Shown here piece by piece: positions 30,951 to 36,899 of a DNA stretch of 64,000 bases. The notes under the pieces were generated by a model, which was not told the DNA's origin, ran no database searches, and saw only the letters and a program-made list of their open reading frames with translations. The stretch comes from Utricularia gibba (taxonomy: Eukaryota > Streptophyta > Magnoliopsida > Lamiales > Lentibulariaceae): the NCBI GenBank assembly GCA_002189035.1, contig NEEC01000013.1:1860001-1924000 (forward strand), read 5' to 3'. Positions within the stretch are counted from its first letter, which is position 1, and each line of letters opens with the position of its first letter. The position numbers were made by a program, and so were the translations under genes.

Positions 30951-33673
30951 ATGGCCACAAGGAGGCTCCTAGCCTCTTTCCTGCGATCATCGGCGGCTCG
31001 GAGATCCAGATCGCCGTTTTCATCGATCGCAAACCCCGTTTCGCGTCCCTCTCCCGCAGGCCATTTCCTTCACCGCTTTGTCACTCAGTTCGCTACCTCT
31101 GCGGCTGCTGCTGCTCCCTCTTCGCCTAAATCTCCTAGCGGCAGCGCCGGGGGAAAAATTACGGATGAGTTCACAGGCGCTGGCGCAGTCGGGAAAGTAT
31201 GTCAGGTCATTGGGGCCGTCGTTGATGTGAGATTTGACGAGGGTTTGCCGCCGATCTTGACTGCATTGGAGGTATTAGATCATCAGATCAGGCTTGTCCT
31301 GGAGGTCGCTCAGCATTTGGGTGAGAATGCCGTGAGGTGCATTGCTATGGATGGGACTGAAGGATTAGTGAGGGGCCAGCGCGTGCTCAACACTGGATCA
31401 CCAATTACGGTGAGTTCGAAGAAGTGCTCCTTATTTATTGCTGTCGAGGTTTTATTGGCGTTGATATTTCTTGTCGTTTTTTCCCATAAAAAGGGAATAC
31501 TGTACAGAGTTTGATGACATGATTTGTGTAAAAGTTGCGCCTCTGAAATTTACATCAAGGTGGTACGGTTGACGTTATTAAGAGTTACACAACCGGTTTC
31601 TATATGTCTGTTTTGATGCATTGAATGTAGTTTTTCATTTTTATGGATATGTTGATCGTGGCTCCAAGCTCAAGTATCTGAGGATGTTTTTTTTTTCTTT
31701 TTAAGTACTTTTTTGGCTACTGCTCCATGAGCTTGCGGACAATTGTAGATTTTTGATTGCATGCACTGAAATTTGCGCTTCCTGATTATAATTTCTCTGA
31801 TTTCAAGCACAGGTGCCTGTTGGTAGAGCTACATTGGGCCGCATCATCAACGTTATTGGGGAGCCTATTGACGAGAAAGGAGATATCAGTGAGTGAAGTT
31901 ACAGTAGAATTTTAAGAGCATTATCACTAGTTAGGTGGGGATGGCCGGGGCTTTGTTTTCTAACGTGAGAGCTTCATGCAGAAACTGAACACTTCTTACC
32001 AATTCACCGTGAAGCACCTTCATTTGTGGAGCAAGCTACGGAACAGCAAATTCTTGTTACTGGAATCAAGGTTCCTTTTGATTTTTGATGAGTGCATGAC
32101 GTTTATCATGATTTTGAAGGTCTTTCTCCTCATGACTTTTTATTTTGCAAATATTGTAGGTTGTGGATCTGCTGGCGCCATATCAAAGGGGAGGCAAAAT
32201 TGGGTTGTTCGGTGGTGCAGGTGTGGGAAAAACCGTGCTCATCATGGAGCTCATCAACAATGTCGCAAAGGCTCATGGTCTATTCCTGATTTATGCATAT
32301 TTACACACTGAATCTTTATCGTGTTTTTTTCCACTAATGCATTGTACTCGATGTGTTTTTTAACTTTCAGGTGGTTTCTCTGTATTTGCTGGTGTTGGAG
32401 AACGCACTCGTGAGGGTAATGATTTGTACAGAGAAATGATAGAAAGTGGTGTCATAAAGCTAGGTGACAAGCAGGTAATGTCATGTTTTTAATTATTTCA
32501 CGAATTATCCCTATGATGTTTGGATGCCGTCATAGCTTGCTTGTTCATACTCCTAGGCTGACAGCAAGTGCGCCCTTGTATACGGTCAAATGAATGAACC
32601 CCCTGGTGCTCGTGCCCGTGTTGGGCTTACTGGATTGACAGTGGCTGAACACTTCCGGGATGCTGAAGGACAGGACGTGCTTCTCTTCATTGACAATATT
32701 TTCCGGTTTACACAAGTAAAGTTTCTGTTATACTGCTTTTATCGTTTAAATGTTCTGGAGATGGCTTTCATTGATAAATTTCTGTTCGTACTGCTTTGTT
32801 CCATTAATTGTTCTGGTTAAGGCCTTCAACCTTTTTCCTGACTGGTGGAGCGTTGCAGGCCAACTCAGAGGTGTCTGCTTTGCTTGGTCGTATCCCATCT
32901 GCCGTTGGTTATCAACCCACTCTGGCCACCGATTTGGGAGGCCTTCAAGAGCGCATCACAACTACCAAGAAAGGCTCCATCACGTCTGTGCAAGCCATCT
33001 ATGTCCCCGCCGATGACTTGACTGATCCAGCTCCGGCCACCACCTTCGCCCACTTGGACGCCACGACTGTGTTATCCCGGCAGGTGGGTATATTCTCTCC
33101 AAGTTTCTTTCTTGAACAACTATACGCAAGCCATCCTGCAACTTTTTTTTTTTTTTGTGATACAGATCTCTGAGCTGGGTATTTATCCCGCTGTTGATCC
33201 CCTCGATTCAACATCTCGAATGCTTTCTCCACACATTCTGGGAACGGACCACTACAACACCGCCCGTGGTGTACAGAAGGTTCTCCAGAACTACAAGAAT
33301 CTTCAGGATATCATCGCCATCCTTGGAATGGACGAACTGAGCGAAGATGACAAATTGACGGTTGCTCGTGCTCGTAAAATCCAACGTTTCCTGAGCCAAC
33401 CCTTCCATGTGGCGGAGGTCTTCACCGGCGCTCCAGGGAAGTACGTCGAACTGAAGGAGAGCATCAACAGCTTCCAGGTACAATTTAGATCTTGTTTAGA
33501 CTCCCCACTTCCCACTCACTCAAAACTAATGTCTCCATCTTCGCTGTTATCACCCTCAGGGGGTTCTGGACGGCAAGTACGACGACCTCCCGGAGCAATC
33601 GTTTTACATGGTCGGAGGAATTGAAGAAGTCATGGCCAAGGCGGAGAAGATCGCAAAGGAATCCGCTTCCTGA
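30951..33673 (+). CDS. ATP2: Mitochondrial ATP synthase subunit beta, tandem copy 1
   Basis: Catalytic beta subunit of the mitochondrial F1 ATPase. Exons are 30951-31409, 31813-31888, 31982-32070, 32160-32277, 32371-32474, 32557-32715, 32859-33083, 33166-33477 and 33560-33673, giving 551 residues. The first roughly 55 residues are Arg/Ser/Ala-rich, a mitochondrial presequence. Then follow [22 protein letters not shown] and the P-loop [17 protein letters not shown]. The catalytic Glu lies in [13 protein letters not shown], followed by [29 protein letters not shown] and [21 protein letters not shown]. The C-terminus is [26 protein letters not shown]. All introns are GT-AG. The second copy starts 442 bases downstream with the same exon lengths. 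The stretch 32811-33365 is almost identical to copy 2, introns included, unlike the rest. Confidence 0.96.
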
Positions 33674-34115: not shown

Positions 34116-36899
34116 ATGGCTACTCGGAGGCTGTTGACCTCTTTCCTCAGATCGTCGGCCGCCCGGCGATCCAGGTCGCCGTTTTCATCACTCACAAAGC
34201 CCACTTCGCGTCCCTCTCCCGCAGGCCATTTCCTGCACCGCTTTGTCACTCAGTACGCTACGTCCGCCGCCGCTGCTGCTCCCTCCCCATCTAAATCTCC
34301 CAGCGGTGGCGCTGGTGGGAAAATTACGGACGAGTTCACGGGCGCTGGCGCGGTGGGGAAGGTGTGCCAGGTGATTGGGGCCGTCGTTGATGTGAGATTT
34401 GACGAGGGTTTGCCTCCGATTCTGACTGCCTTGGAAGTATTAGATCATCAAATCAGGCTCGTTCTGGAGGTCGCTCAGCATTTGGGTGAGAATGCCGTGA
34501 GGTGCATTGCTATGGATGGGACTGAAGGATTAGTGAGAGGTCAACGAGTTCTCAACACCGGATCACCAATTACTGTGAGTTCGAAGAACTCCTCGTTCAT
34601 TGGTTGCTATTTAGGCTTTTTATTTGTTTTGCTTTTTCGTTGTTACTCGCCAAAAGGAGAATTTTTTCACACAATTAGATGAGATTTAGATAAAATTTGC
34701 ATCCTTCATATCCAGACAGCAGTGGTTGCTTTTGAAGTGATTCAGCGTTACATTGTCGGATTCAATGAGTTATTTATGAGCTTTGATACGTTGAATGCAG
34801 TTTCTTCATTTCAGTATGTAGTTTCTTTATGACTCCCGAGTTTCAGCAGCAGCTTGATGTAGTTTCTTCATTTTCGGTAGTGCTTTAAGATGTGGTGTTA
34901 ATTACGATGTACTGCCCCTAGCTCCCGTTCCCTTTGACAGATTCATTGAAATTGCGCAATTCTTATTTAAATATCAGAATTACATGAAATTCAAGAGCGT
35001 TTCAATGGGAGTGCTTGTAATAGAGAAATTCTCTAGACTATTTTGTGATTTGTATCAATCAAATCCCTTTCGTGATAATATGAACCATAGGTACCTGTTG
35101 GTAGAGCTACATTGGGCCGCATTATCAATGTCATTGGGGAGCCTATTGATGAGAAAGGAGAGATTAGTGAGTGAAGTTCCTGTAGAATTTTAGAAAATTA
35201 TTTACTAGCTGGGTGAGGATTGTAGGGGCTTTGGTTCCTAACTTGAGAACTTCATGCAGAAACTGAACACTTCTTACCGATTCACCGTGAAGCACCTGCA
35301 TTTGTGGAGCAAGCTACCGAGCAGCAGATTCTTGTTACTGGAATCAAGGTTTCTTAATGATGCTTGATGAGCTCATTATGTGTATTGTCATTTTGATGGC
35401 ATTCACCCTTGCTTGACTTCTTCTTTTGCAAAATATCATAGGTTGTGGACCTCCTAGCACCATATCAAAGGGGAGGAAAAATTGGTCTGTTCGGCGGTGC
35501 AGGTGTAGGGAAGACTGTGCTTATCATGGAGCTCATCAATAATGTTGCAAAGGCACATGGTTTGCTCCTCCAACATGAACTATTTCATACTCAGTCTTTT
35601 TTGCTTAGTTTTTTTTCTTCCCTACTAATTCATTGTTTCCAATTTTCAGGTGGTTTCTCCGTATTTGCTGGTGTTGGGGAACGCACTCGTGAGGGTAATG
35701 ACTTGTACAGAGAAATGATAGAAAGTGGTGTCATAAAACTAGGTGAAAAGCAGGTGATGTTATTTAACGAATTTTCCATATGATTTTCGGACACCAGCTC
35801 AACTTCTTCGTTCCTGTTTTCAGGCTGATAGCAAGTGCGCCCTTGTATACGGTCAAATGAACGAGCCCCCTGGTGCTCGTGCCCGTGTTGGGCTTACTGG
35901 ATTGACAGTGGCTGAACACTTCCGGGACGCTGAAGGTCAGGACGTGCTTCTCTTCATTGACAACATTTTCCGCTTCACACAAGTAAGCTTCTGTTGCTTC
36001 TGAGTTTGTCCATAAACCAGTGTTTCTGGTTAAGGCCTTCAACCTTTTTCCTGACTGGTGGAGCGTTGCAGGCCAACTCAGAGGTGTCTGCTTTGCTTGG
36101 TCGTATCCCATCTGCCGTTGGTTATCAACCCACTCTGGCCACCGATTTGGGAGGCCTTCAAGAGCGCATCACAACTACCAAGAAAGGCTCCATCACGTCT
36201 GTGCAAGCCATCTATGTCCCCGCCGATGACTTGACTGATCCAGCTCCGGCCACCACCTTCGCCCACTTGGACGCCACGACTGTGTTATCCCGGCAGGTGG
36301 GTATATTCTCTCCAAGTTTCTTTCTTGAACAACTATACGCAAGCCATCCTGCAACTTTTTTTTTTTGTGATGCAGATCTCTGAGCTGGGTATTTATCCCG
36401 CTGTTGATCCCCTCGATTCAACATCTCGAATGCTTTCTCCACACATTCTGGGAACGGACCACTACAACACCGCCCGTGGTGTACAGAAGGTTCTCCAGAA
36501 CTACAAGAATCTTCAGGATATCATCGCCATCCTTGGAATGGACGAACTGAGCGAAGATGACAAATTGACGGTTGCCCGTGCTCGCAAAATTCAACGTTTC
36601 CTGAGCCAACCCTTCCATGTGGCGGAGGTCTTCACCGGTGCTCCGGGGAAGTACGTCGAACTGAAGGAAAGCATCAACAGCTTCCAGGTACAAGTCACCA
36701 AGCTACACACACTCTCATTCAGATCTCCCCTCCAGCGTTTCTTTTACCAGGCTAAACGTTCTCTCTTCCCTTTCGTTACGCGTAGGGTGTGCTGGACGGA
36801 AAGTACGATGATCTACCGGAGCAATCGTTTTACATGGTCGGAGGGATTGATGAAGTTATTGCCAAGGCGGAGAAGATCGCCAAGGAATCTGCTGCCTGA
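34116..36899 (+). CDS. ATP2: Mitochondrial ATP synthase subunit beta, tandem copy 2
   Basis: Second copy of the catalytic F1 beta subunit. Exons are 34116-34574, 35091-35166, 35260-35348, 35442-35559, 35650-35753, 35824-35982, 36072-36296, 36376-36687 and 36786-36899. Every exon has exactly the same length as in copy 1, so the protein is again 551 residues. Differences from copy 1 are mostly in the presequence and the last exon ([17 protein letters not shown]). P-loop, catalytic Glu and DNIFRF motifs are all present. Introns 1-5 differ in sequence and length from copy 1. The stretch from the end of intron 6 to mid-exon 8 (36024-36575) is almost base-identical to copy 1. Both copies look functional. 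Confidence 0.96.

Follow-up and report, generated by a model that had tools for sequence, protein, structure and literature searches.

Ectopic gene conversion has been described between the tandem copies of HMA4 in Arabidopsis halleri (PMC3749932), and in duplicated genes of Arabidopsis and rice conversion is relatively abundant in tandem pairs, among other classes (PMC6383267). The mitochondrial ATP synthase beta subunit of Arabidopsis is encoded by three genes, AT5G08670, AT5G08680 and AT5G08690, two of which have an identical mature protein (PMC11277312). The window analysed here, a stretch of 64,000 nucleotides from the genome of Utricularia gibba (contig NEEC01000013.1 of assembly GCA_002189035.1), contains a tandem gene pair that belongs to the same family; as in Arabidopsis there are several copies, those of Arabidopsis having neighbouring locus numbers. 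The likeness to HMA4 of A. halleri is that tandem plant paralogues appear to have exchanged coding segments while other parts stayed distinct; the difference is that conversion at HMA4 is recurrent and known from population data, whereas the present case, from one reference genome, is a single clear and recent tract in copies that diverged anciently. The survey of Arabidopsis and rice was based on Ks in orthologue quartets, whereas here the tract edges are resolved to the base in one three-sequence comparison. No report of a conversion event in this gene pair was found in the literature.

The tandem genes and their homeologue

Judged by their sequences, both members of the pair are predicted to be intron-containing nuclear genes for subunit beta of the mitochondrial ATP synthase (Table 1). 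Domain PF00006 scored above cut-off in both copies in a profile search, and the top matches of the product of copy 2 exon 1 are ATP synthase beta chains (solved F1 beta chains). The paralogues lie about 3.2 kb apart in the same orientation. The variable N-terminus of the copies suggests an N-terminal presequence, to which nine of the 15 amino-acid differences between the two proteins belong; of the remaining six, exons 2, 3 and 5 account for three and exon 9 for the other three. No Rfam family reached the cut-off anywhere in the window, so no overlap with a known RNA gene was found.

Table 1. Coordinates of the tandem genes, the near-identical block, its flanks and the outgroup copy.
Feature	Position	Strand	Remarks
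Copy 1, predicted mitochondrial ATP synthase subunit beta gene	30951-33673	+	9 exons, 552 aa, intact; based on GT-AG exons and open reading frame
Copy 1 exons	30951-31409, 31813-31888, 31982-32070, 32160-32277, 32371-32474, 32557-32715, 32859-33083, 33166-33477, 33560-33673	+	
Copy 2, tandem paralogue	34116-36899	+	9 exons, equal in length to those of copy 1; 552 aa, intact
Copy 2 exons	34116-34574, 35091-35166, 35260-35348, 35442-35559, 35650-35753, 35824-35982, 36072-36296, 36376-36687, 36786-36899	+	
Left flank, intron 6 of copy 1	32716-32810	+	low identity to copy 2; diverged internal duplication
Near-identical block, copy 1	32811-33365	+	555 bp; taken as the minimum tract of the probable conversion
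Near-identical block, copy 2	36024-36575	+	552 bp
Right flank in exon 8	33366-33477	+	differences resume; 6/112 bases differ
Third nuclear copy, contig C142	L004 3102-5769		in-genome outgroup

The genome searched consists of 100 Mb in 516 contigs, the tandem pair being inside a contig of 3.2 Mb. Matches to the gene occur in three places only, and no haplotig was found in the assembly. The third copy, on contig C142, lies in a neighbourhood collinear with the window, with upstream matches at 12.3-13.0, 18.6-20.6 and 27.2 kb. Accordingly, the C142 copy arose by segmental or whole-genome duplication. Downstream of it lies the decayed remnant of a BRO1-like gene, a fragment of the gene that follows copy 2 in the window (37246-38500, presumably BRO1/ALIX-like); this is an example of post-duplication fractionation. 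Exon 1 of the C142 copy (L004 3102-3559) has a frameshifting one-base deletion beside a run of C; exons 2-9 are open, and the deletion is either an assembly error or the sign of an early pseudogene. Relative to the tandem copies, the C142 copy also carries T437E and D438F.

Just upstream of copy 1, at 29799-30595, is a non-autonomous DNA transposon of 797 bp with perfect terminal inverted repeats of 14 bp (TAGAGCTGGGTACG) and an 8-bp target duplication on both sides (TGTCGGAG), features that make it appear hAT-like. Its interior contains a tandem repeat of about 48 bp with palindromic units (30094-30251; cgtgggttatgtaacccacg). The first 200 bases of the transposon have about 20 other matches in the genome, and two end pieces situated about 2.4 kb apart on contig C317 (1582545-1585170) perhaps represent a longer relative. 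A link between this transposon and the near-identical block was considered, but the two are 2.2 kb apart and nothing connects them.

A near-identical block with sharp edges

The earlier note had described an almost base-for-base match between the copies over the intervals listed in Table 1, including the end of intron 6 and all of intron 7, with one substitution and a difference in the length of a T-run; the intervals proved exact and the description accurate. The block begins with the final 48 bases of intron 6, continues through exon 7 and intron 7, and ends after base 200 of exon 8. Its sole substitution is A at 33162 in copy 1 versus G at 36372 in copy 2, and its sole length change is 14 T from 33143 in copy 1 versus 11 T from 36356 in copy 2; the two proteins have no amino-acid difference within it. 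On the left, the nearest outside difference is in intron 6 at 32810, directly adjoining the block. On the right, it is at 33366, the third base of a GCT/GCC codon after GTTGC in exon 8, exactly where the abrupt return of differences had been noticed before. Intron 6 of copy 1 contains a diverged internal duplication (32719-32828) with units of about 53 bp and 77% identity, of which unit 1 ends in ttctggagatgg, like the C142 copy, and unit 2 passes directly into the near-identical block (ttctggttaagg). Because the second unit runs directly into the block, the left edge of the tract lies inside this repeat.

In the sliding-window divergence of copy 1 versus copy 2, the block stands out just as abruptly. 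Divergence is 0.2% in the block; outside it, exons differ mostly by 5-14%, and introns 1-5 are clearly diverged (39, 21.5, 27, 33 and 33%), as the earlier note had claimed. On the left side, the copies differ by 20% over the span from exon 1 to exon 6 and by 49% where intron 6 adjoins the block; on the right side, the values are 5.4% (remainder of exon 8), 46% (intron 8) and 11% (exon 9). The introns thus differ unequally, and equal intron identity along the whole pair, which would speak against conversion, is ruled out. Outside the block, Ks is about 0.45 and Ka about 0.0175. Broken down by part, synonymous divergence starts at 0.57 in exon 1, falls to 0.37 over exons 2-6 and to 0 in the block, and rises again to 0.24 for the remainder of exon 8 and 0.59 for exon 9. 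Synonymous differences number 0 in the block versus 102/301 outside (Fisher p about 1e-16), the one change tallied for the block being that of the boundary codon 33364-33366, hence the count of zero. Intron sites behave similarly, with 1/127 differing in the block versus about 36% outside (p about 2e-21).

Over the interval of the block, the C142 copy is 17% divergent from each of the tandem copies, with a Ks of about 0.9 (56/108 synonymous sites changed) and a divergence of about 24% in intron 7. The interval is therefore not slow-evolving; it has been homogenised only in the tandem pair.

The alignment of all three copies has 740 variable columns. The longest run in which copy 1 equals copy 2 extends over 65 of them, versus a maximum of 19 in 20,000 permutations (GENECONV-type), and a stretch interrupted by no more than one mismatch reaches 552 aligned bases at its longest, versus a maximum of 191 in 20,000 permutations; in the second permutation, third positions, first and second positions, and non-coding sites were shuffled separately. 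Segmentation of the informative sites by BIC, with no prior boundaries, yielded three segments, the middle one at 32808-33360. Informative sites that group copy 1 with copy 2 make up 95/96 in the block, 187/457 to the left and 24/100 to the right. As tests for conversion, the permutation and the segmentation both recover the block, which is far beyond chance.

Origin of the block

The block, which by observation is near-identical, sharply bounded and recent, was very probably produced by a single ectopic (interlocus) gene conversion that transferred a segment of about 0.55 kb, beginning late in intron 6 and ending midway through exon 8. A break in one tandem copy would have been repaired homologously with the other copy as template, and repair without crossover would account for the transfer between paralogues. 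Non-crossover ectopic gene conversion is expected to leave just such a block, with two boundaries in each copy and an intron inside. Retroposition and selection on the protein fail to explain the block because it includes intron 7, and the preference of the earlier note for recent conversion over protein selection is supported. The C142 copy was rejected as a conversion partner; the longest runs concordant with it are only 5 and 7 columns.

The single substitution among about 235 near-neutral sites corresponds to a K of about 0.004 since conversion (Poisson 95% limits 0.0001-0.024), or about 1% of the synonymous divergence of the pair. If substitutions accrue at 7e-9 per site per year, a generic rate for plants, the age of the conversion would be about 0.3 Myr (limits 0.01-1.7). 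The G at 36372 in copy 2 is a later change, since the C142 copy has A. Among these three sequences, neither branch patterns relative to C142, nor GC3, nor the derived state of the substitution, nor the intron 6 duplication polarised the donor.

An artefact of assembly or polishing, in which reads of one copy built the consensus of the other across the interval, is very unlikely. Small indel errors may be present in this assembly, as the exon 1 deletion of the C142 copy lies by a C-run and the T-run difference in the block is homopolymeric, but it is implausible that polishing overwrote about 100 differences. Collapse is likewise improbable, as it would merge the copies in their entirety rather than an interior stretch of 0.55 kb flanked left and right by diverged sequence; the pair also lies deep within its contig, and the genome has matches in three places only and no haplotig of the region. 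Less likely still is unequal crossing-over, in which the array would have expanded and then contracted: same-orientation tandem copies are able to pair unequally, and a double exchange or a pair of successive unequal crossovers would end in the same product, but a single crossover yields a chimaera with one junction, whereas the block has two boundaries in each copy; two events are needed, and neither a third tandem copy nor any relict was observed. Strong constraint on the DNA of both copies, whether from a regulatory or RNA element or from selection on a protein that is indeed highly conserved (as the Ka outside the block attests), has a negligible chance of being correct and is rejected because the C142 homeologue has diverged in the interval, at synonymous sites and in intron 7 alike, and identity ends abruptly inside an exon.

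Mosaic relationships outside the block

Outside the tract attributed to recent conversion, the relationships of the three copies are not uniform. To the left, 187 informative sites group copies 1 and 2, 126 group copy 1 with C142 and 144 group copy 2 with C142; to the right, the corresponding numbers are 24, 24 and 52. The groupings on the two sides differ (chi-square p = 0.0003, with sites treated as independent and a partition chosen from the data), and in exon 9 and the 3′ UTR copy 2 most resembles the C142 copy. This mosaic hints at older exchange or unequal rates: it could stem from older conversions between the tandem copies that spared the 3′ end, or from copy 1 having evolved faster at its 3′ end. 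A tentative reading, less probable than not, is that the pair has been converted repeatedly, the tandem duplication predating the duplication that gave rise to the C142 copy; homogenisation would have reached the 5′ two thirds first and the 0.55-kb block only very recently.

Implications

The tract in the tandem pair is a clear new instance of ectopic conversion, a process established in plant tandem duplicates; it adds a housekeeping-gene case to the known plant conversions and leaves the principle unchanged. Both of its edges have been placed to the base, in a pair of housekeeping genes of a very small plant genome. A Ks computed over the whole gene would bias the dating of the tandem duplication. 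If conversion has indeed been repeated, its effect would be to keep the mature enzyme uniform while the transit peptides and flanks diverge.
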